A DNA stretch of 25,694 nt. Source: a virus. The notes beneath the pieces are model-generated. The model searched no databases. It saw nothing but the letters and a program-made list of their open reading frames with translations, and was not told where the DNA came from. The position numbers and the translations under genes were made by a program. Location of the stretch: IMG/VR virus record IMGVR_UViG_3300020445_000061, positions 1 to 25,694 of that record. The stretch is one strand, 5' to 3'. Below, one piece after another: positions 3,802 to 15,216 of the stretch; positions within the stretch are counted from its first letter, which is position 1; every line of letters starts with the position of its first letter.

Positions 3802-3830
3802 ACAATAGCATGTATGAGAACGTATGTCAA
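3802..3830 (-). promoter_or_regulatory. Sigma70-type promoter for the small-gene block
   Basis: Minus-strand TTGACA (3830-3825), 17-base spacer, TATTGT (3807-3802). The TGA stop codon of the needle gene lies inside the -35 box, so the late hub operon and the early small-gene block abut with no spare DNA. Confidence 0.55.
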
Positions 3831-4750
3831 GGGTTGAGGTCGATTCGAGGTGCCTTGTGGGTCATATTTCCTCCTGAATCAAAGAGTGACTTAGATCCAC
3901 AATCCATCCCAAATTCTCCCGACGCTGATATATTTATTTTACCAGCAGATGTCTTAATTAAAAATGCATTACTTCCAGAACCCAAAGATCCAAATGATTG
4001 AGCAGTTGGAGCACCCAAAACCCTTTTACCACCTACATCGAACTCTACTTTACCAGTTATTTTATTGATAGAATTACTCTTAACAGTTGTTCGCATATGT
4101 CCATTAACATCTATTTGCATATCACCTTCACTCTTAAGTTGAAGCACACCACCTTTACTTGTTTGTTCGATGATATATGTACCTGAGAATGAATCTCTAA
4201 TTACTCCACCTTTCTTAAGGTTACGTTGTATATTAGCACCCCATAGGTAGTATTTGTTTACATCTATCGTATAGGTTCCCCTAATATTAAGACCACCTTC
4301 TGCAGCATTGACTATGTACTTATCACCAACATCAAGAGTGTATAAACCATCTACCTTATCATGTCTATTGCCACGTACATGAGTGTGCATATCACCCTCA
4401 ACATCAACATGAGCATTACCTACTACATGTAATACAAATCTATCACTAGCGTCTTTCTGTTCTGCATCTACATTTTCACCAGTTTTTACATGAATATGTC
4501 TAGCAGCAACAATGTTTATATCTCTTGCTGGAGAATGAATTTGAATATCTCCAGTAGGGTACATCTTAATATAAGATCCAGTAGTACCATGTCTTATTTG
4601 TATATGCTCTTCACCCTTCTCCTCATAGAACTCTATCTTGTGACCACAAGAATACTGGGTTACTCTGTTGTATGGGTATTTCTTTTCCCCACCGTCATTA
4701 TTCTCAGCAAGGAAACTTAATGCTTTTTGTGTCTTATCATCAATTGCCAT
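3827..4750 (-). CDS. Baseplate central spike/needle protein (gp5 C-terminal beta-helix-like)
   Basis: 307 residues when started at ATG 4750, which overlaps the TAA of the upstream gene (TAATG) and has a GGAGATC ribosome binding site; an in-frame ATG at 4777 would add nine residues without such support. The middle of the protein is a long series of short beta repeats with alternating V/I and D/G/H, for example GDIQIHSPARDINIVAA, then VVGNAHVDVEGDMHTHV and DMQIDVNGHM. This is the pattern of the triple-stranded beta-helix of T4 gp5C and VgrG spikes that punctures the host outer membrane. Many His residues could bind metal, as in spike tips. In T4 this domain is fused to gp5; here it is a separate protein after the gp5-like gene. 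Confidence 0.75.
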   Translation of the reverse strand: MAIDDKTQKALSFLAENNDGGEKKYPYNRVTQYSCGHKIEFYEEKGEEHIQIRHGTTGSYIKMYPTGDIQIHSPARDINIVAARHIHVKTGENVDAEQKDASDRFVLHVVGNAHVDVEGDMHTHVRGNRHDKVDGLYTLDVGDKYIVNAAEGGLNIRGTYTIDVNKYYLWGANIQRNLKKGGVIRDSFSGTYIIEQTSKGGVLQLKSEGDMQIDVNGHMRTTVKSNSINKITGKVEFDVGGKRVLGAPTAQSFGSLGSGSNAFLIKTSAGKINISASGEFGMDCGSKSLFDSGGNMTHKAPRIDLNP

Positions 4751-6879
4751 TATTGATCTCCAGGATGACCAACACAATCAATGATGGTCTTGTATGTTGC
4801 ATAGTCAGTAATGTATTTCTCAACATCTTTTCTAGGTACATAATTTATTACTGGTACTATTACAGCAGATCTTAATCCACCTACATCACCTTCACCACAA
4901 AGATATATTTCAGGTTGAGCAGTAAACCCAAATCCTTCCTTAGTAATCTTCAATGCAGTCAATCTACCTTCATGTAGTATAGGTTGATACTCAGGTAATA
5001 TTGGATTACCTCTTTCTCGTTTACCTGCTTTAACACAAACTGTAGTTCCAGCAGTTAAACCATAACCAGCATTGAATATTGCAGGAGGTTGAGCAAATGT
5101 CATAATACCAATCCAATATGGATTTTCTACATCTATTCCGTACATCTTATCATACAATGGATCTCCATTATCGTCAAGTTTTAAGGGGTTATTGGAAACA
5201 GATCCATCAAAATATGGATAACCTCCTCCACCCTTAGTAACAACTACATCTGATACCTTACCATCCTTAATTCTTACATCTGCTGTAGAACCATCACCAT
5301 AACCAGCATAAGACGTTACAGACACCTTAGGTGGTCTTCTTAACCCACTACCACTATCAGTAACATTAATAGCAACTACTTGCCCAAAATGATTAACTGC
5401 AGGTATACCTCTTGGTGGGTTAATACCAGATCCTGGTGTTCCTTGATACCCAGTAAAGAATGTACTAGGGAATGCAGGAATTAAAGTATCATTTGCTTTA
5501 GAACAGTTGATTGTTCTATCAGAAGCTTTAGCACCATTCATAATTCTGGTACTATCCATATCTTTAAAGAAGGCAGCATCACCAAATAATGCTGGTACAA
5601 CATCATCACCAAATGCTTCTACTCTATTAACTAATGATTCAACAATATTATCTGGTCTATCTCCCTCTTTGGTAGTATACTCTCCAGTTCCTGTGTAGCA
5701 TGACATATCTACATTACAGAACTGATTTAATACTTCTCCTAACTTATCAACAAATCCAATATCATAACTTCCTTTAGATTGTATAATTGATGCTGCATTA
5801 TTAATTGCACTCAAGGCAGTTTCAATACCTTCACCAATCATAGAAACTAACAACTCCGTTAAATCTTTAGCGACACAAAATCCAGCATTAAGTAAATTAT
5901 CGAACAGGTCGTTAACCATATCAGTGAGAGATCCCAATAATTGGTTAGCAAGATTATCAAAGAGACATTTCACAATCTCCATGAATGTATCAAATATTTC
6001 CTGTGCATTAAATACTACTTCTGGATTCTTTTCGGGAGAAAGATTTAAAGCAATTGTTAATGGTGTAAGAACCATCTCTTGGAAGAACTTCTTTAATTCA
6101 TATAGTATTACTTGTTTAGTATCACCTAATATACCATTAGCGACACCTTGTAATCTGGAGACATATGATCTTGTAAGTTCTGCTCTGTTTGATATCTTTC
6201 CAGTTACCTTATCAATAAGTAAATCACCAACAATATCATTTCTATTCTTCTTTGCAAATAATTCGCTGAGTATTCTCATAAACTCAGATTCTGGTCTATG
6301 ACCACATTTACCATTTGATACTGAGAATGTAATCTTCTCTATATCTAACTGTTGCTTGTCATTACTACTGTTTCTACCTGTCTGTGTACCTCTTCCAGAT
6401 GGTCCTACTGAACCTTTACCATCTGCAGGTTTATTATTAGCAACAGTATCTGCACGAGTTGGTTCGTAGTTATTACTTAAACCAAGATTACCTGCAACAT
6501 CAGTATATGTTTTACCTTTCTCAACTACACCAAGAGACCCAAAAACCAAAGGTTGTTGGGCACTCTCTCCATCTAAAAAGGTACCAATAACCCATGCACC
6601 AATTCCTAGTCCATGTATAGTACCTTGACTCTTATGCCACTGTGGGGAACTTGGAGGCATCAAAACAGATGCCCAAGGTAAATCCTTAGGTGGCAATGTT
6701 TGTCTATCACGGGCATGATAACCCATGATTCTAACTTTAACTCTATTATTCTCTTGCTTATCAATTAGATCTTCGTGATCTATATCAATAGCACCATCCC
6801 CCTCGACTTGACCAACCCAAAGTCGATTACCTTGGGCACCAAACCAATAATTAGATTCTAGGGTATTTGCAAGTGCCAT
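4750..6879 (-). CDS. 5: Baseplate hub protein, gp5-like with N-terminal OB-fold
   Basis: 709 residues. The N-terminal ~130 residues (YWFGAQGNRLWVGQVEG, NRVKVRIMGYHARDRQ, LPWASVLMPP, IGAWVIGTFLDG) match the OB-fold of T4 gp5 and other spike hubs, which sits on the gp27-like ring. A long helical and Asn/Ser-rich middle follows, then a beta-rich part with repeated 'V.D.GSG...PP.V.V' and 'GGGGY' phrases near residue 500, seen in other cyanophage virion proteins. The T4 gp5 lysozyme core is not visible, and the needle is encoded by the next gene. The start overlaps the stop of CP12 (TAATG). In the virion it should form the trimeric hub at the tail tip. The OB-fold assignment is firm; the role of the remaining 500 residues is not known. 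Confidence 0.8.
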   Translation of the reverse strand: MALANTLESNYWFGAQGNRLWVGQVEGDGAIDIDHEDLIDKQENNRVKVRIMGYHARDRQTLPPKDLPWASVLMPPSSPQWHKSQGTIHGLGIGAWVIGTFLDGESAQQPLVFGSLGVVEKGKTYTDVAGNLGLSNNYEPTRADTVANNKPADGKGSVGPSGRGTQTGRNSSNDKQQLDIEKITFSVSNGKCGHRPESEFMRILSELFAKKNRNDIVGDLLIDKVTGKISNRAELTRSYVSRLQGVANGILGDTKQVILYELKKFFQEMVLTPLTIALNLSPEKNPEVVFNAQEIFDTFMEIVKCLFDNLANQLLGSLTDMVNDLFDNLLNAGFCVAKDLTELLVSMIGEGIETALSAINNAASIIQSKGSYDIGFVDKLGEVLNQFCNVDMSCYTGTGEYTTKEGDRPDNIVESLVNRVEAFGDDVVPALFGDAAFFKDMDSTRIMNGAKASDRTINCSKANDTLIPAFPSTFFTGYQGTPGSGINPPRGIPAVNHFGQVVAINVTDSGSGLRRPPKVSVTSYAGYGDGSTADVRIKDGKVSDVVVTKGGGGYPYFDGSVSNNPLKLDDNGDPLYDKMYGIDVENPYWIGIMTFAQPPAIFNAGYGLTAGTTVCVKAGKRERGNPILPEYQPILHEGRLTALKITKEGFGFTAQPEIYLCGEGDVGGLRSAVIVPVINYVPRKDVEKYITDYATYKTIIDCVGHPGDQ

Positions 6880-7106
6880 TAATCATCGTAGATCAAACAC
6901 TCAGGTTCGTCTGGGTGCATCTCGCAAAATAATTCTATTGCATTTGGATCATGATGATCACCTGCTTCTATCTCATCGTGATGATGCTCTTCATAAACTT
7001 CTAGTTCATGTAGCTCTTCCTTATAATGCCTACGTGCAGCAGGACTTATAGTAGGATCATCAAGTATCTCTTGATCATGCTTAATGTGATCTTCTATAGT
7101 TTTCAT
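6879..7106 (-). CDS. cp12: CP12-like Calvin-cycle regulator
   Basis: 75 residues. The C-terminus AIELFCEMHPDEPECLIYDD carries the CP12 signature: two cysteines (61 and 70) eight residues apart around an acidic, Pro-containing loop, ending in YDD. In cyanobacteria this end enters the active site of GAPDH and, with phosphoribulokinase, forms the inactive dark complex. The N-terminal cysteine pair of plant-type CP12 is absent, and only a helix-rich segment (RRHYKEELHELEVYEE) and a His/Asp-rich linker precede the motif. Phage CP12 is thought to shift host carbon flow from the Calvin cycle to the pentose phosphate pathway. Oddly it sits between two baseplate hub genes, five bases after one and overlapping the other. 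Confidence 0.85.
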   Translation of the reverse strand: MKTIEDHIKHDQEILDDPTISPAARRHYKEELHELEVYEEHHHDEIEAGDHHDPNAIELFCEMHPDEPECLIYDD

Positions 7107-7111
7107 AATTG

Positions 7112-8398
7112 TTAAACTCCGAAGGAATCTCTTACAAGTGTAAGGTTTGTTCTCATTTCTGAATCAGCACCAATATGGCGTAACTCAAAGACAATATAAC
7201 GTCCTGATTGGTTTTTGTCAACTTCACCGTCTGCTCCATATATCTCTATCGAGATAATGTTACCAGCTCGTAACTCAAGGTTTGACATACAACTTGCAGT
7301 TAACACCTGACTGGTAAAAATACCATATCTACTAACTGCCTGACCAACCGTTTCTAAGAACATTAACTTGTCCTTTGTGTTGTCTTCATTAGACCCCAAG
7401 AACAAGTCCTTAGTATAAGCCACTGTCATAGTACGTGTTGATACATCTGACAATGCTGCCTTATATAGGTCTGGTAGGTCTTCCTGTTCAGCGACTTTCT
7501 CCCATTTTGCATAATTATCCTTGATATTATACCTATATGTGTCCACTTCACAATCAACTACATCAAAGAAATCTATTTCTCCAGAATAAAATCCTCTATC
7601 AAAATTCTCAAACATATTTAATGTCTTAGGAAAATTAATACCATTTAATCTAAATGCTTCATCCATTCCTCCAGATCCATCTCCAGTACTATATGCTGCA
7701 GCTTCACCACCCTGAACAGCAAGAGAATCAAATGATTGGAAATTATAAGTATCATATCCTTCCCAGAAGAAATATCCAGCACTAATATTAGAACCACCAC
7801 TCTTAGTAGATTTCTGATCCATAGATATAAACTTATTTCTTGTCCATACTAGAGTTTCATATGGTTTTGAATTTGGTGGTATGAATGTTATCTTATTATA
7901 ACTATCCGAAACATTTTCTAGAGCAATGGGTTTTGTTGATTTTAATTCCTTTTCTATAACATCTTTTACTAATTCTTGAGCACTAATAGAAGTATACTTC
8001 TTACCTATTCTAGTAACAGCATTATTCAGAGCATCTTCTCTACACAATTCTAATACAAATCTTTTTATTGTATCAGTCACTTCCTTACTATGAACTTCAT
8101 ATATGAATAAAGGTCCATTTGCAGATTCTTCAGTAAACTCAAAACTAACATCACTAAATTTATCATCAACTATTAATTCAATCTTTTCCATTCCATAAAT
8201 GGATTCAAACAAACTAGAAGTAGTATCCTCTATTTGTAATGTTACCTGAATGAATTTCTGCATTAATCCTTCAGTATACTCAAATTGCTTAATACCTGCT
8301 GCATCAATAGCAACTCTCTCAGCTTTAGCAGCATGAGGAGTTATCCAAGCTTCCCTTATCTCAAAATTTTCAGTTTGTAATGGATCTGTTATATTCAT
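7112..8398 (-). CDS. 27: Baseplate hub protein, gp27-like
   Basis: 428 residues, starting at an ATG that overlaps the previous stop (ATGA). The text is that of a tail-hub beta-barrel protein: ITPHAAKAERVAIDAAGI at the start, FIQVTLQIEDTTSSLFES, a two-barrel core, then 'YAGYFFWEGYDTYNF'-like aromatic strands and a C-terminal domain with LRAGNIISIEIYGADG and GRYIVFELRHIG, a strand pair typical of gp27/gpD hub proteins that handle a 'coming to the end of a barrel' fold. T4 gp27 has 391 residues. The position directly before the gp5-like gene supports a gp27 role: a ring that joins tail tube and spike. The assignment rests mostly on fold-like text and context rather than close identity. Confidence 0.65.
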   Translation of the reverse strand: MNITDPLQTENFEIREAWITPHAAKAERVAIDAAGIKQFEYTEGLMQKFIQVTLQIEDTTSSLFESIYGMEKIELIVDDKFSDVSFEFTEESANGPLFIYEVHSKEVTDTIKRFVLELCREDALNNAVTRIGKKYTSISAQELVKDVIEKELKSTKPIALENVSDSYNKITFIPPNSKPYETLVWTRNKFISMDQKSTKSGGSNISAGYFFWEGYDTYNFQSFDSLAVQGGEAAAYSTGDGSGGMDEAFRLNGINFPKTLNMFENFDRGFYSGEIDFFDVVDCEVDTYRYNIKDNYAKWEKVAEQEDLPDLYKAALSDVSTRTMTVAYTKDLFLGSNEDNTKDKLMFLETVGQAVSRYGIFTSQVLTASCMSNLELRAGNIISIEIYGADGEVDKNQSGRYIVFELRHIGADSEMRTNLTLVRDSFGV

Positions 8399-11364
8399 AA
8401 TCCTGGTTGTAATGCTGCATCAATAGCAGATTGAGACATTTTAGATCCAACTTTGGTTTTCGTCTTCATTTTAGTACCACCAGTTTTTGCCTTTGCAATA
8501 CTTATAGTGTTAGAAACACTATTAAGTTTACTCATAACTTTAACTATTTTATCAGTTGGTGAATCCCCTTTATCTATACCCTTATCTTTCTTATTAGATG
8601 CTGATTTTACATTCTTACCATCAAAATCAAATGCATTACCAGTAAGAGCATCAGCAACACCACCTAATATACCACCAACTCCACGTTCTTTAGCATCCTT
8701 CATTAATCCACCAAGAGGATTAGCAAAATCTCTCTTAGCTCTTAATTTATTTACTCTTTTATTTTTAAGAGCTAGCATACTATCCATAGCTTGAGGTGCA
8801 ACTTGTTTTCCATTGACAGTCATGGTTCTAGTTGCTGTTGGATCATTCCTTAAAGCTTCAATCCTTGCTTGTCTATTTTTATATCTATCTGATTGTTTAT
8901 ATCGTTCCCAACTACTACCATCTCTACCTTCTCTACCTGGTTTACCTCTAAGTCCCTTAGCAATACTTACTGCCATACCAAATGGAGACATTTTAAGTGC
9001 AGCACCAGCTAATTTTGCAGTAGAACCTAATGCCTTTTTACCAATACCAAATGTTTTCTTAAGAACTATACTAGGTAATTGGAATACACTCTTTATAGGT
9101 TTAACAAATTTATTAAGTGATTTATTACCAGTCGGTCCTAAATCCTTTGCACTTATCTGTTTTAATCCAGATTTCTTATTTGTACTCCGTGTTGCTGTTG
9201 GATCATTCTTTAAATTAGTAATCCTTGCTTGTCTAGATTTATATCTATCTGTTTTCTTATAATCTTCATATGAAAGCTTTCCACCTTCTCTATAACCTTT
9301 AATACGTGTATCTTCAATTACATCTTGGATAGAACCTGAGGTATCACTAGTAGATCCCTGAATACTTCTTCTCCGTACCTTCTTCTTACCTAATCCTAAG
9401 AATCCAGTTCTTATTTCTTTAGTTGGGAAAGTAACAGAGTAGTGACGACTACCACCAATTATACCCAAATCTTCAATAGTAGCACCATCTGCTATTAGCT
9501 TATCATACTTAGATACAACCTCTGCTTCTGGTACAATATTTTCACCTTTTTTTGAAATAGGTTTCTTAACTGGACTCTCACTGTCTTTCTTTGGAGTTTG
9601 AGTAGGAGGTTTTGTTGGTGGATCTTTTTGTTCTTTCTGTTCCTTTTCTTGTTTCTGAACTTCTTTTTGAGCAGTATCTAAAGCTTGTTCATCTTCTTTA
9701 AGATCTTCATCCTTCTCTTCATTTCCTTGTAACTTTTCAATATCATCAGCTTGTTCTTCAAAGAAAGGTCTTAAACCTTTTATCATTAATGGCATTGCCA
9801 TTACATACAATGAACTTAATATTCCTGCTCCTGCTTTCTTCTCAAAGTCACTCTTTTCTCCCTTCTTATATCTTCCATCATCCGTATTCTCAGAACCTGG
9901 AGAATCTGGTTCATCTTCTATTCCCTTTTCAGCTTGTTGTGCCCCTAACTTAGTATCTAATTTTTTATCAATACTCTTTCTTAATTTAAATCTATCTTTT
10001 TGAACTTTAAAAAGACCAAATAATGCCTTTCTAGCTTCTCCAATATTCTTTGCAATATTATGGAGACCTGATTTACCTCCCTTTCCTTTCTTTGGAATAG
10101 CACTACCAAATCCTTTACCACCCTTTACTGGACCTTTACCTCTAGTTTTCTTCCTCTTCTTCTTACCATCAGGAGTAGGAATAGCACTTTGTCCTGCAGA
10201 ACTACCTGTTGGAATTACCTCAGGATTTATTACTCCTCTAGCTTCCTGTTCATCTTGCTCTATAGATTGATCACGGGACTTCATAAGACCAGTAACATCA
10301 TCATACCATGGTGTCTTATCTTTAGGGAAAGGTATACTAGGATCTCTAGCAATATCCTTTCTAAGAATATCAATCTTTCTGTCTAGTAATACATCTTTAC
10401 GGTTATCATCGACCTCACCTTCCCAGTCATCGTCACTACTACCCTTAATATTAGTAGATGCCATAGGAGATATGGCTGCTTGTGCTTTATCTAACCTTGC
10501 CAGCTTTTCCTTTTGGGTGCCTTTTCCGAACTTTGGATTTGCCTTAATAAATGCTCTTGCTCTATCTAATTCTTTCTGATCTTTTGGATTCCTTAAAGAT
10601 GTAACTTCAGTATTATCATTAATTTTCACACCATTCTTGTCATATCCAGGATCACTTGATCCCATAGTCAATCTATCTGTGAATGTACCATCCCATTCAC
10701 CTATAGCTCTACCTGCACGTTTAGCACCACGAAGTCCACGTTTAGCACCAATACGTAGTTGTTGTTTTAATATATCCTTCCGTGATTTACCAGGAGGAAG
10801 TCCTGCTCCTGGAAAACGTGATAATGCTCCACCTGGTGATGGAACTATTGCTCCACCTTTAACGACAGGAGTTGATGGTGCTTGAGTTACAAGAGCACCT
10901 GCTTTTTCTACTGCTGCCTTTTTCTTTAATTTCTTTGAAGTTGCTTTAACATCAATAGCTTTAGGGGGAGGACTTCCAGTAATCTCTGCTACTTCTTTAA
11001 GCAGATCATCCATTTCCCTCAGTGCTTTAGCATCTGATTCAGCAACTTTCTTTAAATTTTGACGTAATCTTTCAGCAATTTTAAGTGATTTCTTTGGTGC
11101 ACCCGAAGTAACATCAATAGCACCTCTCTTCATATCTAATGATGCTTTAGGGAGTGTCACTGGTTCTGGATTTGCATCCATCAACTTCTTCAATTCACTA
11201 TTACTTAACTTCTTATATGGTGTACCAAACCCATCAGCACCATAATCCATTGCCTTAACATGGGTTTCTAATTTCTGCCACTCTTTATCCTTACCGATAC
11301 TTCTATAATACTCGGCTTTATCCAATACGGATCTTCTTATTTTCATCCATGCCTTATCTGCCAT
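8395..11364 (-). CDS. Large Lys-rich tail protein, tape-measure candidate
   Basis: 989 residues, very rich in Lys, Gly, Ser and Asp, with long low-complexity and disordered stretches, a Lys/Glu/Gln coiled-coil-like region (EDEQALDTAQKEVQKQEKEQ) around residue 570 and one hydrophobic segment (SLYVMAMPLMIKGL, near 520). Two copies of a 28-residue motif, D-R-Y-K-x-R-Q-A-R-I-x-x-L-x-N-D-P-T-A-T-R, occur at about 698-725 and 818-845. A short collagen-like run (GKPGREGRDG) precedes the second copy. It lies between the smaller tape-measure-like protein and the gp27-like hub. At the usual rule of about 0.15 nm of tail per residue, 989 residues would span about 148 nm. Tail function is inferred from context; no family is firmly recognised. 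Confidence 0.7.
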   Translation of the reverse strand: MADKAWMKIRRSVLDKAEYYRSIGKDKEWQKLETHVKAMDYGADGFGTPYKKLSNSELKKLMDANPEPVTLPKASLDMKRGAIDVTSGAPKKSLKIAERLRQNLKKVAESDAKALREMDDLLKEVAEITGSPPPKAIDVKATSKKLKKKAAVEKAGALVTQAPSTPVVKGGAIVPSPGGALSRFPGAGLPPGKSRKDILKQQLRIGAKRGLRGAKRAGRAIGEWDGTFTDRLTMGSSDPGYDKNGVKINDNTEVTSLRNPKDQKELDRARAFIKANPKFGKGTQKEKLARLDKAQAAISPMASTNIKGSSDDDWEGEVDDNRKDVLLDRKIDILRKDIARDPSIPFPKDKTPWYDDVTGLMKSRDQSIEQDEQEARGVINPEVIPTGSSAGQSAIPTPDGKKKRKKTRGKGPVKGGKGFGSAIPKKGKGGKSGLHNIAKNIGEARKALFGLFKVQKDRFKLRKSIDKKLDTKLGAQQAEKGIEDEPDSPGSENTDDGRYKKGEKSDFEKKAGAGILSSLYVMAMPLMIKGLRPFFEEQADDIEKLQGNEEKDEDLKEDEQALDTAQKEVQKQEKEQKEQKDPPTKPPTQTPKKDSESPVKKPISKKGENIVPEAEVVSKYDKLIADGATIEDLGIIGGSRHYSVTFPTKEIRTGFLGLGKKKVRRRSIQGSTSDTSGSIQDVIEDTRIKGYREGGKLSYEDYKKTDRYKSRQARITNLKNDPTATRSTNKKSGLKQISAKDLGPTGNKSLNKFVKPIKSVFQLPSIVLKKTFGIGKKALGSTAKLAGAALKMSPFGMAVSIAKGLRGKPGREGRDGSSWERYKQSDRYKNRQARIEALRNDPTATRTMTVNGKQVAPQAMDSMLALKNKRVNKLRAKRDFANPLGGLMKDAKERGVGGILGGVADALTGNAFDFDGKNVKSASNKKDKGIDKGDSPTDKIVKVMSKLNSVSNTISIAKAKTGGTKMKTKTKVGSKMSQSAIDAALQPGL
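8828..8913 (-). repeat. Internal direct repeat, copy B (in 989-aa tail protein)
   Basis: Encodes residues about 818-845 (SSWERYKQSDRYKNRQARI and following). It is nearly identical in DNA to copy A exactly 360 bases away; for example, gttgctgttggatcatt and atccttgcttgtcta recur on the plus strand at the same offset. Confidence 0.8.
9188..9273 (-). repeat. Internal direct repeat, copy A (in 989-aa tail protein)
   Basis: Encodes residues about 698-725 (SYEDYKKTDRYKSRQARI and following). Paired with copy B at 8828-8913; the two copies share about 20 of 28 residues, and DNA similarity includes several runs of ten or more identical bases. Confidence 0.8.
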
Positions 11365-11366
11365 AG

Positions 11367-13082
11367 TTAATTACCTTCTGTCTTACGACCCCATACGGCA
11401 AAAGAACTTGATTTAGTTGCAGCAGAACTTCCACCAACTGGAAATGGTACTACTTGTGGTTCTGATACTTGAGCAATCATAACTGTATTAGCCAATGATG
11501 GAAGTATATCTTCGTAATTTGGTTCAGGTTCTGGATCTACCATATTTAGTTCTTTCTTAGCAGCTGCAATTCTATCTTCAATTGGATTTTCATAATCATA
11601 ATTCATACGATGAATACTACTATCTAATCCCCTCATAGTACTTGCAACAGTACCTTGTTTAGTCCAAGTTTCCCTGTTATGACTAGCAACTTCAACACCC
11701 TTTACATGTGCACTTGCACTAAAACTTCGTCCAGGTTTCCAAGTGAATTGTGCTCCAACAGCATCTCTATCTGTAACTTCAGGTTGAACTATTGCCTCAC
11801 TAGTATCATCACCACTCTCCATATCTTTCTTATTTTCCTTTGCTACATCTTCAACTGCTGATTCAACAACATCTGCTATTAATGGTGCTACAAACCAACC
11901 CAACCTACTCTTAGGAACAATATACTCGTCCTCTTTACCTTCACCCACCATAATCAATTGAGGTTTCTTAATCTGAGCTCCTTCTGCTGCACCTTCTGCT
12001 TTTCCTTTACCTATAGTAACATCATATAATAATCCACCTAAAGCATCACCAATCATACCACCAGCAATAGCACCTAAAGTACCTCCTACTGCTGTTCCTA
12101 AGAATGGAATAACAGATCCAGCAGCAGCTGCTGCAACTCCACCTGCCCAAGCACCAATACCTGCACCCGTTGCCATGAATACTGCTTTGGCTACAGGTTC
12201 TTTAAAAACAAAGATATTAATAAGTGCATCAGCAATAGCACCAATAAATGGTATTCTCTTTAATAACTTTCCTGGACCTGCTTTATAAAATAATTTAAAC
12301 TGCTTAAGAAGTTGTTTTGTACCAGTTTTAGCTATCTTCTTACTACCTACTTCTGCTATTTCTTTAGTTCCACTCTGTATTAATTTCTTTGCACCACTTT
12401 CAGTTCCACTCTTTAATAACTTAGTACTTGCTGTTTCAGCACCCGACTGAAGTAACTTTTGAGCAGGTTTTTTAGTGAAAGCCGATTTTGCTTTTTTCGC
12501 TATAGCATTAAATGCCTTTCCAGGTAAACTCTTAATAAATCTACTAGCTTGTCTGAAAGGTCTAAATATAGTTCTCCTAAACCGTTTACCAATTGTTCTC
12601 CATTTTCTAAGTAAACGTCTAAGTCGTCTAATTGCTTTTATACCACGTTTACCAATTAATCTCTTTAAACCACGTTTTATCTTAAGCCACGCCTTTCCAA
12701 GTAGTTTCCTAAATAACCGATTTAACCAAGTACCACCTTTTGGATCTTCTAATTCCTTCTTCTTAGCCCATCTCCTTCTCATCTCAGGTGTTCCAGGAAC
12801 AACCTTTTTAGATTTCATAATACCGAGATTACCAAATCTAGAACGCTCATACGTAAGTTCTAATTTAGTTTGTTTCCAAAGTAATATTGCAGTATCTCTT
12901 AACTTCTTTGACTCTTTCTGAACAGAATTTATATCTCCACCAGATCCTTCACCATCACCATCATCACTATCTCCCTTTGGCTTATCTGGATGTGCACCAA
13001 AAACAGCCGTCTTTGCATTATACAGTGATAACACAAGATCGTTATAATTCCTTGTTCCTAATTTTTTAGTTTTTACAGGCAT
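11367..13082 (-). CDS. Tape-measure-like tail protein
   Basis: 571 residues. The N-terminal third is basic (many RRLRRLLRKW-like runs around 130-190). It is followed by an amphipathic repeat region (LLQSGAETASTKLLKSGTES, with the phrase 'K.L..SGT' repeated about four times between 205 and 260) and a long Gly/Ala hydrophobic segment (about 295-355, GAGIGAWAGGVAAAAAGSV). Around residue 380 the phrase IMVGEGKEDEYIVPKSR resembles the 'VGE.GPE.vvP' box common near the end of tape-measure proteins. The size is close to T4 gp29 (590 aa), and it directly follows gp26 and its -1 extension, the classical chaperone/tape-measure order. TAAATG joins it to that extension. It may be the gp29 counterpart; which of the two large proteins measures the tail is open. 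Confidence 0.65.
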   Translation of the reverse strand: MPVKTKKLGTRNYNDLVLSLYNAKTAVFGAHPDKPKGDSDDGDGEGSGGDINSVQKESKKLRDTAILLWKQTKLELTYERSRFGNLGIMKSKKVVPGTPEMRRRWAKKKELEDPKGGTWLNRLFRKLLGKAWLKIKRGLKRLIGKRGIKAIRRLRRLLRKWRTIGKRFRRTIFRPFRQASRFIKSLPGKAFNAIAKKAKSAFTKKPAQKLLQSGAETASTKLLKSGTESGAKKLIQSGTKEIAEVGSKKIAKTGTKQLLKQFKLFYKAGPGKLLKRIPFIGAIADALINIFVFKEPVAKAVFMATGAGIGAWAGGVAAAAAGSVIPFLGTAVGGTLGAIAGGMIGDALGGLLYDVTIGKGKAEGAAEGAQIKKPQLIMVGEGKEDEYIVPKSRLGWFVAPLIADVVESAVEDVAKENKKDMESGDDTSEAIVQPEVTDRDAVGAQFTWKPGRSFSASAHVKGVEVASHNRETWTKQGTVASTMRGLDSSIHRMNYDYENPIEDRIAAAKKELNMVDPEPEPNYEDILPSLANTVMIAQVSEPQVVPFPVGGSSAATKSSSFAVWGRKTEGN

Positions 13083-13274
13083 TTAAGATCTTCTCTTCTG
13101 TTCTTCAATTTTCTTCTTCTCCTCTTCCAAGTGTTGTTTTAACAATTCAACGTATACATCCCTTTCCCATGGGATCATATTATTAAGATCGTCAAAACCA
13201 TACTTATGATGTTGCATCATACCAAAGTTGATCCTTATATGAGATTCAAGTGAGGTATGGAAGAGGGCTATATG
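13083..13274 (-). CDS. -1 frame extension of gp26 (tail assembly chaperone T-like domain)
   Basis: This open stretch in the -1 frame relative to gp26 starts at the slippery heptamer and ends at TAA 13085-13083, immediately before the ATG of the tape-measure-like gene. After a -1 slip it adds 63 residues (HIALFHTSLESH at its start, KYGFDDLNNMIPWERDVYVE in the middle, then a Lys/Glu helix ending KRRS), giving a 295-residue gp26 fusion. The phrase 'YGf..l..m.PWER..Y...L' resembles the frameshifted half of lambda-type tail assembly chaperones. A stand-alone protein of 45 residues could instead start at ATG 13220, but its ribosome binding site (GGAT, 10 bases away) is weak. Confidence 0.65.
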   Translation of the reverse strand, partial: HIALFHTSLESHIRINFGMMQHHKYGFDDLNNMIPWERDVYVELLKQHLEEEKKKIEEQKRRS

Positions 13275-13969
13275 AAAAAATTGGCTAATCCCTCAATTGT
13301 GTGCGAACTTTCGACTTTAGTATTGGGATTTCTTATTTTGATAGTATGCTTTAATGATGGCATGGTTTCAAAGAATTCCTGAATTTTAGCAAATTGCTTA
13401 CTACTCATTCCTTCAACAAATTCCATAAATTCATCTTCTGTTGTAGTAGATGAATCCCACACATCTTCTTCATTGTAAATCTTTTTAATAGATTTAGAAA
13501 CTAATTTAAAGGTATCCTCAACAGTTTCTTCTTGTTGAGCAAGAGAATCTATATTTGGATATTTCATTTCAACCCAAAGATCATCACTAACTTGTATTTT
13601 ATTAGTATGACCCTTAGTAAATGAAACTTTAATCTTATCTATTGGTATTTGTGTAGTTACTTCAGTTTTATCATCGTCAGGACATAACACCCTAACATCA
13701 ATACTTTCACCAATAGATTTACCTCTAATATTTAAAAATAAATACTCAACATCAAAAGTAGCAAGATTATCAGGATCAATTCCCTTAGTGAGAACACATG
13801 CTCTTATCAAATCCTTCATTGCCTGAGCAATTTGGACATCATCCTCAGATTCTAATGCTAATAGAAGAACTTTCTCTTCCTTAACCAAGAATGGTCTATA
13901 TTTAACTTTCTTTTTAGTTGATGGTATAGTCAACTCATAAGTCGGGGTACTTAACGAAGGTAATGCCAT
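13268..13969 (-). CDS. 26: gp26-like baseplate hub / tail assembly chaperone protein
   Basis: 233 residues, matching the T4 gp26 baseplate hub family (T4: 208 aa). The text is MALPSLSTPTYELTIPSTKK, then YRPFLVKEEKVLLLALES, DLIRACV, the conserved VEYLFLNIRGKSIGE near residue 75-90, and a C-terminal half with FVEGMSSKQFAKIQEFFETMP and PSLKHTIKI. In many tailed phages the protein in this position is the tail assembly chaperone that keeps the tape measure soluble, and several features here fit that role: it lies directly upstream of a tape-measure-like gene and ends in a -1 slippery sequence. The stop TAG is at 13270-13268. No strong promoter is visible in the 33 bases to the upstream gene. Confidence 0.85.
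   Translation of the reverse strand: MALPSLSTPTYELTIPSTKKKVKYRPFLVKEEKVLLLALESEDDVQIAQAMKDLIRACVLTKGIDPDNLATFDVEYLFLNIRGKSIGESIDVRVLCPDDDKTEVTTQIPIDKIKVSFTKGHTNKIQVSDDLWVEMKYPNIDSLAQQEETVEDTFKLVSKSIKKIYNEEDVWDSSTTTEDEFMEFVEGMSSKQFAKIQEFFETMPSLKHTIKIRNPNTKVESSHTIEGLANFFI
13274..13280 (-). promoter_or_regulatory. Programmed -1 ribosomal frameshift site T_TTT_TTC
   Basis: In gp26 codons 230-232 (AAT TTT TTC) the heptamer T TTT TTC fits the X_XXY_YYZ rule exactly. Both tRNAs re-pair with TTT TTT after a -1 slip, two codons before the in-frame TAG. The new frame is open for 63 codons up to the next gene. Confidence 0.7.
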
Positions 13970-14002: not shown

Positions 14003-14746
14003 CTAAGCGAAACCTGCTCCAATGGATGAAGGAATATCGTTCATACCTAAATTTCCATAAATCTTTTTCTGAGTTCCTTCATTCTGTTTAGAAGCTGCCA
14101 CAAACTGTGCAACACTTTCCTCTCTTAGATACTCATAATAAAATGCTGCTTGAAATCTAACTGGTTGATTAGGACCATTACTAAATGTCATAGCAGATAA
14201 TGTATAAGGAAATGCATTCTTCAATACATAACTTGAAACTACATTAACTGGTTCTACTGTATTATCATTTGTCTCTATCTTTTGAATAATTAAATCTGCA
14301 GTATAATTATCGTAATAATTAGTCCTTATATAATCATTAGGTTTCTTTACCTCCTCTGTATGTCCAAAAACATACTCACCCCATCTTTGCATTACTTTAT
14401 ATGGAGTGTGCTTATGGTCAAGAATAAAACTTATATTTGCTTCACTAAATGTCTTAGTGTGTGCATACTTTAAATTAATTCCAGGTAGAAATCCTTTCAA
14501 CTCATCAGTAGCAACTGTGAACCCAGGAACATTTACTTCATCTGCTAACCAACTAGTTAATGATGCATTTGCTACATTACCTATACCAATTTCTTGATCA
14601 AAAACTGGTCCTGGATTATCTACTCCTTTATAGAGTACATTATCTCTAAATTTATCATTAGGTGGCAAAAATGATATTTGATACCTATTTGAGTTAGCAA
14701 TCCCATAGTCACCTACTATATTCTTTCTAATATCGTCGATTTTCAT
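14003..14746 (-). CDS. 54: Tail-tube-fold protein, probable gp54-like tube initiator
   Basis: 247 residues. The layout matches tube-initiator proteins of the T4 gp54 type: an N-terminal NSNRYQISFLPP strand, VNVPGFTVATDELKGF, LPGINLKYAHTKTF, then ISFILDHKHTPYKVMQRWGEYVFG, which recalls 'ISFRMD.....AMQDWV' in T4 gp54, and a final strand VRFQAAFYYEYLREES. It is shorter than T4 gp54 (320 aa) and longer than the tube protein gp19 (163 aa). It heads the minus-strand late operon, 23 bases downstream of a TATAAATA late promoter. A different tail-tube paralogue is the alternative. In the virion it would seat the first tube ring on the baseplate next to gp48. Confidence 0.6.
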   Translation of the reverse strand: MKIDDIRKNIVGDYGIANSNRYQISFLPPNDKFRDNVLYKGVDNPGPVFDQEIGIGNVANASLTSWLADEVNVPGFTVATDELKGFLPGINLKYAHTKTFSEANISFILDHKHTPYKVMQRWGEYVFGHTEEVKKPNDYIRTNYYDNYTADLIIQKIETNDNTVEPVNVVSSYVLKNAFPYTLSAMTFSNGPNQPVRFQAAFYYEYLREESVAQFVAASKQNEGTQKKIYGNLGMNDIPSSIGAGFA

Positions 14747-14768: not shown

Positions 14769-14776
14769 TATTTATA
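14769..14776 (-). promoter_or_regulatory. Late promoter TATAAATA for the tail hub operon
   Basis: Minus-strand perfect TATAAATA, whose last base lies 22 bases before the ATG at 14746, ahead of the gp54-like, gp26 and hub genes. It is the T4-type late box. Confidence 0.7.
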
Positions 14777-14781
14777 TTTAT

Positions 14782-15216
14782 ATGGCATATTCTGGAAAAT
14801 ATAGACCAACCCAACCTAGAAAGTATAAAGGTGATCCAACTAACGTGATTTACAGATCATTATGGGAAAGAAAGTTCATGCAATGGTGTGATTTAAACAG
14901 TGATATACTACAATGGGGATCTGAAGAATTCTTTATACCATACCGTTCTCCCGTTGATAAACGGGTTCATAGATACTTTCCTGACTTCTATGTAAAGTGT
15001 CGTACCACACATGGTACTATAGCTGAATATGTTATTGAGGTAAAACCATTAAAACAGACAGCACCTCCAATAAAGAAGAAACGAGTAACTAAAAAGTATA
15101 TAACGGAAGTTACTCGATATGCTATCAATGAAGCAAAATGGAAAGCTGCTAATAAATATTGCAAACAGCGAAATATGCAATTTAAGATACTAACAGAAAA
15201 AGAACTAAAGGTATGA
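14782..15216 (+). CDS. 4: gp4 head completion protein (PD-(D/E)XK fold)
   Basis: 144 residues, the T4 gp4 (50/65) head completion family, needed to make filled heads competent for tail joining. The opening GKYRPTQPRKYKGDPTNVIYRSLWERKFMQWCD and RYFPDFYV are family text. The sequence also shows a PD-(D/E)XK nuclease-type active site: E29 in the WERKF helix, D68 in PDF, and E86-V-K88 in VIEVK. A TnsA-like endonuclease fold is therefore likely, and the family may trim DNA during packaging; this activity is inference. It is the first gene of the plus-strand late operon, and its stop overlaps the next start (ATGA). Confidence 0.9.
   Translation: MAYSGKYRPTQPRKYKGDPTNVIYRSLWERKFMQWCDLNSDILQWGSEEFFIPYRSPVDKRVHRYFPDFYVKCRTTHGTIAEYVIEVKPLKQTAPPIKKKRVTKKYITEVTRYAINEAKWKAANKYCKQRNMQFKILTEKELKV

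Follow-up and report, generated by a model that had tools for sequence, protein, structure and literature searches.

A cp12 gene without its own late-type box at the tail15-gp5 junction of a cyanophage

INTRODUCTION

CP12, a small protein believed to switch off carbon fixation in the host, is usually seen as an effector acting during replication, when it would redirect host carbon flux towards the making of dNTPs. What such a gene is doing amid the tail and baseplate genes of a phage is the question raised by the IMG/VR record IMGVR_UViG_3300020445_000061, whose whole stretch of 25,694 nucleotides was analyzed and is referred to here as the window. The original prediction, which implied that this position is an oddity, offered three readings of it: that CP12 is made late, that its gene serves as a translational coupler for the gp5-like gene that follows, or that the protein is carried in the virion. 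Here the gene and its junctions are described, compared with other phage cp12 loci, and used to weigh these readings against each other and against an internal early promoter.

THE cp12 GENE AND ITS PRODUCT

The prediction of a 75-residue gene with a CP12-type C-terminus was correct. Its product (full sequence MKTIEDHIKHDQEILDDPTISPAARRHYKEELHELEVYEEHHHDEIEAGDHHDPNAIELFCEMHPDEPECLIYDD, the translation of 7106..6879 on the minus strand) matches the Pfam CP12 family (PF02672) with E = 1.4e-10 and 42.3 bits, against a curated cut-off of 22.7, and bears a C-X8-C...YDD tail, CEMHPDEPECLIYDD. The phage family that it matches is phrog_627 (E = 3.7e-37). The C-X8-C is shared by all 76 phage CP12 copies compared, the window included. 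The window protein has no cysteine ahead of residue 61, and the N-terminal cysteine pair occurs in none of the 76; the AWD of the AWD_VEE core motif is likewise found in 0/76, and AWD_VEE is absent from the window protein. Because AWD is missing throughout the 76 copies, the window protein is, as judged from its sequence, a phage C-type CP12 rather than a classical one. A review of the family describes phage CP12s as similar mainly to the C-terminal part of CP12, and CP12 features as variable in cyanobacteria and phages, the marine picoplanktonic group being the exception to having the classical form (PMC3906501). An effect on PRK, or its recruitment, by phage CP12 appears doubtful, since the phage protein has neither the N-terminal cysteine pair nor AWD_VEE.

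The closest solved relatives are CP12 chains, the entries of which include GAPDH-CP12-PRK complexes: a phage-CP12 profile reaches the Thermosynechococcus CP12 of GAPDH complexes (6gfo/6gve; E = 0.0017) and, with E = 0.009, another CP12 chain, 3zdf_C. The AF2 model, predicted with relatives from IMG/VR loci, has a mean pLDDT of 77 and features an N-terminal helix pair and short C-terminal helices. A Foldseek search with this model gave no significant match, which is not surprising because CP12 is conditionally disordered. In comparisons with eight members of the same clade, the window's cp12 has dN/dS values of 0.08-0.24, most of them near 0.1, and those of tail15 are similar (0.11-0.21). This low ratio, together with the gap and overlap conserved in the clade, rules out a chance ORF; cp12 is a real gene under purifying selection.

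JUNCTIONS AND OPERON

The features around cp12 are collected in Table 1. Both of the junctions foreseen, a five-base gap to the preceding gene and a TAATG overlap with the gp5-like gene, are present, and a gap of 4-6 nt and an overlap (TAATG or TGATG) are kept in 9/9 clade members. The gene before cp12 does adjoin it and belongs to the tail and baseplate set, but it is not the hub gene gp26; it is a tail gene of the T4-GC15 family, tail15. The codons TTC GGA GTT around the GGAG element are invariant in the 10 sequences compared, and a scan of the end of tail15 for a hidden element found no clear dip in synonymous rate except at these GGAG codons. At the other end of cp12, no clear Shine-Dalgarno for gp5 is seen. 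As for the notion of a coupler, the anatomy fits well, in that TAATG or TGATG is conserved and the same type of overlap joins tail15 to gp5 in P-HM2-like phages lacking cp12 at this junction; from this anatomy we reasonably infer that translation of cp12 and gp5 would be coupled.

TABLE 1. Features of the cp12 region of the window
Feature	Positions	Strand	Remarks
gp5 C-terminal part, separate gene	3827..4750	minus	ATG at 4750 overlaps gp5 stop by 1 nt
gp5 N-terminal part (OB domain), 709 aa	4750..6879	minus	"baseplate hub subunit and tail lysozyme", E = 3e-65
TAATG stop-start overlap of cp12 and gp5, 1 nt	6877..6881	minus	TAATG or TGATG in 9/9 clade members
cp12, 75 aa, ATG start	6879..7106	minus	Pfam CP12 match; ends IYDD after C-terminal C-X8-C
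Example peptide of CP12, HDQEILDDPTISPAAR			
Gap, tail15 stop to cp12 ATG, 5 nt	7107..7111	minus	4-6 nt across the window's clade
GGAG, Shine-Dalgarno-like element for cp12	7117..7120	minus	within last tail15 codons; putative function
tail15, tail protein, 428 aa	7112..8398	minus	phrog_350 "tail protein", E = 2e-69; T4-GC15 family
Sigma-70-like site, TTGACA-17-TATATT	7193..7221	minus	in tail15, 87 nt ahead of cp12; possible internal promoter
989-aa gene of the run	8395..11364	minus	overlaps tail15 by 4 nt
571-aa gene of the run	11367..13082	minus	partial match to tail-associated lysin / tape measure families
gp26-like baseplate hub gene	13268..13969	minus	
Tail tube-like gene heading the run	14003..14746	minus	phrog_45; position of P-HM2 GC725
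Tandem late-promoter box, TATAAATATAAATA	14769..14782	minus	same strand, 7.66 kb upstream of cp12

A late promoter had been placed 7.6 kb away on the same strand, and the TATAAATATAAATA box is found there, 7.66 kb upstream of cp12. At 14782..14769, it is the only late box that lies just before a gene of the run; from 3 to 15 kb the strand has six further TAAATA matches, each of them intragenic and not at a distance of about 30 nt from a start. No terminator-like site was found at the end of cp12, which is on the same strand as the run and has no late box of its own, the box heading the run being 7.7 kb off. The part of the late-synthesis proposal that concerns gene order therefore stands, cp12 being boxless and deep in a run headed by the only gene-proximal late box, and late kinetics would be expected from this placement. 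With the promoter usual for cp12 genes missing here, expression of the gene probably relies on the late tail operon. Two side observations concern this part of the window. Its gp5 is split into two genes (3827-6879) with a 1-nt overlap at 4750, as it is in P-HM2. Further along, at 1932-2333 on the minus strand, a 133-aa protein with a signal-like start and a glycine-rich stretch matches phrog_767, "cAMP phosphodiesterase", a label that looks doubtful.

POSITION OF cp12 IN OTHER CYANOPHAGES

The survey of cp12 neighbors called for by the original prediction was run on 19 reference cyanomyoviruses chosen for spread, not at random, and it shows that the hub position is anything but odd. The order tail15-cp12-(insert)-gp5 is found in 17 of these 19 genomes (P-SSM4, Syn9, S-SM2, S-SM1, S-SSM7, P-SSM7, P-RSM6, P-TIM40, P-RSM4, ACG-2014h, ACG-2014j, S-PRM1, SynMITS9220M01, Sf-CH8, S-SSM4, S-T4, and S-SZBM1), making it the commonest site among the references examined. 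The exceptions are P-HM2, where cp12 is beside talC, and P-TIM68, where it is upstream of gp25. The 1-nt overlap of cp12 with gp5 recurs in S-SM2, S-T4, and SynMITS9220M01, while in Sf-CH8 cp12 overlaps both of its neighbors. Variable positions of talC and cp12, among them "near gp5", were reported as early as 2010 (Sullivan et al., 2010; PMC3037559). The tail15-cp12-gp5 arrangement is thus known and common.

A search of genome contigs for host CP12 gave only two matches, both to phage contigs within MAGs. Two contigs filed as Euryarchaeota and Anaerolineales MAGs (PAZU01000055.1 and DBHI01000014.1, respectively) have tail15-cp12-gp5 and look like cyanophage contamination. Another locus, IMGVR_UViG_3300006345_000684, has two cp12 genes 5.7 kb apart (2678-2902 and 8428-8652), each with its own TAAATA box.

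THE LATE-TYPE BOX UPSTREAM OF PHAGE cp12 GENES

The box was surveyed in 76 non-redundant cp12 loci, comprising the IMG/VR loci closest to the window's cp12 and the references. In 56 of them, TAAATA begins 25-41 nt before the cp12 ATG, a register in which a random same-strand position would have it 1.2% of the time. Its presence depends on context: all four talC-linked copies have the box, as do 21/21 copies elsewhere (which, where looked at, sit among small unrelated genes) and 18/20 of those with an insert before gp5, against 13/31 in the direct tail15-cp12-gp5 context. The difference between this direct context and all the others (43/45 with box) has a Fisher p of 2e-7, which is a guide only, given that the sequences are related. 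All 20 boxless loci, including the window, have cp12 within 21 nt of tail15, and nearly all within 11. These are the tightest hub arrangements, and the window and its clade are among them.

The box agrees with what is known of late promoters in these phages. For cyanophages, NATAAATA has been published as the late promoter (PMC2984593), and the P-HM2 box matches it. Across the P-HM2 genome, the box stands 28-34 nt before gp4, gp51, gp8, gp20, gp25, and a YadA-type gene, and also before cp12 and nrdC; none of the P-HM2 replication genes checked is preceded by a TAAATA box in that register. A search of part of the literature found no earlier statement that cp12 carries a late-type box. About 4 nt past the cp12 box, a TGTA-like tetramer is discernible at positions 10-13 from the start of TAAATA (T in 39, G in 36, T in 36, and A in 40 of the 56), perhaps the start region of the transcript.

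EMPTY JUNCTIONS AND THE tail15 TREE

Loci lacking cp12 were sought by anchoring on tail15 rather than on cp12. Close to the P-HM2 tail15, all 80 IMG/VR loci join tail15 directly to gp5 through overlapping or adjoining codons and have no cp12 between them, and P-HM2 and P-TIM68 themselves have an empty junction. Close to the window's tail15, all 10 loci have cp12 at the junction, one of them ending just past the cp12 start. A tree of 62 tail15 sequences requires a minimum of 6 changes among the states "box", "no box", and "empty", against 26 when the states are shuffled, so that coupling without a box is a recurrent state. In this tree, the root of which is not fixed and in which long branches call for caution, the window clade groups with the P-HM2 clade, whose junction is empty. 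Of the traits of a moron, cp12 displays presence or absence between two conserved operon genes (filled in 10/10, empty in 80/80); an own promoter and terminator are not among its features in the window, where neither a late box nor a terminator-like site was found for it.

A PROBABLE LATE CARGO GENE AND RIVAL READINGS

On balance, cp12 appears to be cargo in the late baseplate-hub operon, made with gp5 and acting in the cytosol on host GAPDH. Transcription from the late promoter at 14.77 kb would read through the run into cp12, 7.7 kb downstream. Ribosomes would start on cp12 from the GGAG site in the end of tail15, stop at the TAA of TAATG, and be handed over to gp5, so that late in infection CP12 would appear alongside the hub proteins. 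The soluble protein may then bind host GAPDH via its C-terminal C-X8-C...YDD tail, as proposed for other phage CP12s, and this binding would lower the flux through the Calvin cycle, so that ATP and NADPH would be left to the phage. That CP12 is made late would result from the gene's place in the operon, not from a structural role.

The main rival to late read-through is the sigma-70-like site near the end of tail15: an internal promoter of the host type could drive cp12 in the early or middle phase, its place in a late operon being incidental. This site is the best promoter-like one in 11 kb (11/12), is on the right strand 87 nt upstream of cp12, and has a -35 hexamer unchanged in all ten relatives listed. 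Yet the region holds 46 promoter-like sites where shuffling leads one to expect 43.9, synonymous recoding of the last 150 nt yields an equally good site in 6% of cases, and the two -35 codons are conserved no more than their 44% baseline would lead one to expect. In the -10, the last T is lost in three relatives and another base is changed in a fourth. The example of P-HM2 speaks for this rival, in that its cp12 is, beside talC and with a late-type box, a middle-class transcript (PMC5082946), so that a box alone need not mean late, and TTGACA-17-TAGGAT overlaps that box. The latter sequence, upstream of cp12 at 9001 of the P-HM2 locus L001 (P-HM2 177301), overlaps CATAAATAC and is a candidate composite of early and late promoters; middle expression in these phages has been suggested to arise from early and late promoters used together (PMC2984593). 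For the window, we regard an internal promoter of this kind as unlikely, though it deserves to be taken seriously.

The two remaining alternatives assign cp12 a role tied to the hub itself, and both fare poorly. That CP12 is packaged, on the hub or within the tail, and delivered on entry would suit its flanking genes, which encode virion proteins (PMC3037559; S-SZBM1_65): S-SM1 virions contain both T4-GC15, of the tail15 family, and gp5 (PMC3037559). Non-structural proteins, too, have been reported in cyanophage virions (PMC10665884). However, for S-SZBM1, where cp12 is in the hub position, the table of 30 virion proteins has the tail15 neighbor SSZBM1_65 but no CP12 (SSZBM1_64), a weak test because gp5 is missing from that table too. 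The printed virion table of S-CREM2 likewise has no CP12, again a weak test, the cp12 of that phage being a divergent copy; and cp12 is also found away from the hub genes, at sites unconnected with structural genes. Carriage in the virion, one of the readings originally offered, is accordingly not borne out and strikes us as very improbable. As an aside, the text of the S-SZBM1 report has S-SZBM1_61 (gp5) and _69 detected in virions, and neither is listed in its 30-row Table 1 (PMC9146016). Scarcely better placed is the proposal that cp12 is retained mainly as a translational adaptor setting the tail15:gp5 ratio, the CP12 protein being dispensable in this clade. The conserved one-base overlap and the want of a clear Shine-Dalgarno for gp5 in the cp12 end are what such an adaptor would have. 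Strong constraint on the protein (dN/dS mostly about 0.1, with C-X8-C and YDD kept) argues against a role as adaptor only, as do the relatives that couple tail15 to gp5 directly and need no adaptor, and we consider it improbable.

Late cargo remains, then, the preferred reading of the window, and its wider interest lies in the promoter pattern: an effector gene that usually has its own box is, in several lineages, a boxless part of a tail-hub operon. A possible, still tentative, generalization is that cp12 is movable cargo which usually brings a late-type promoter with it, and that several lineages independently hard-wired it, promoterless, into the stop-start coupling of the tail gene and gp5. 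If true, carbon-fixation shutdown in the hard-wired lineages would be linked in both timing and extent to the assembly of the baseplate and not to genome replication. With most phage cp12 genes having a late-type box and the tightest hub copies being boxless and probably operon-dependent, the timing of the effector becomes a direct, testable question, for which contrasting phages exist in nature, boxed or coupled, with cp12 in the hub operon or linked to talC.

COMPARISON WITH KNOWN SYSTEMS

With the CP12 of cyanobacteria and plants (PF02672; 6gve, 3qv1), the window protein has in common the C-terminal half with its C-X8-C and IYDD-like end, whereas the N-terminal cysteine pair and AWD_VEE are theirs and are missing from it. 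Among phages, the type represented by Syn9, S-SM1, P-SSM4, P-SSM7, and S-SZBM1 places cp12 after tail15 and before gp5, as in the window. Unlike the window, this type has its own late-type box as well as an island between cp12 and gp5, made up of varying combinations of cpeT, pcyA, a 2OG oxygenase, or tRNA.

The Eurybiavirus group (P-HM1, P-HM2, MED4-213) supplies the closest reference by identity, the CP12 of P-HM2 (77%). The operon of the window's marine, T4-like cyanophage resembles the P-HM2 hub operon, and the order tail15, gp5, gp5C is common to both. In contrast to the window, P-HM2 has its cp12 next to talC, where a CATAAATAC box of its own precedes the gene, and its tail15 directly overlaps gp5. 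The overlap of this box with a TTGACA-17-TAGGAT site is consistent with the middle class of the gene, a combination that the window cp12 does not have. A close match in arrangement is provided by S-SM2, a Nilusvirus, in which tail15, a gap of 9 nt, cp12 (SSM2_015, flanked by SSM2_014 and SSM2_016), a 1-nt overlap, and gp5 follow one another in the same order as in the window, and in which, again as in the window, no TAAATA box lies upstream of cp12. The CP12 proteins of the two are 65% identical, while their tail15 proteins are only about 23% identical.
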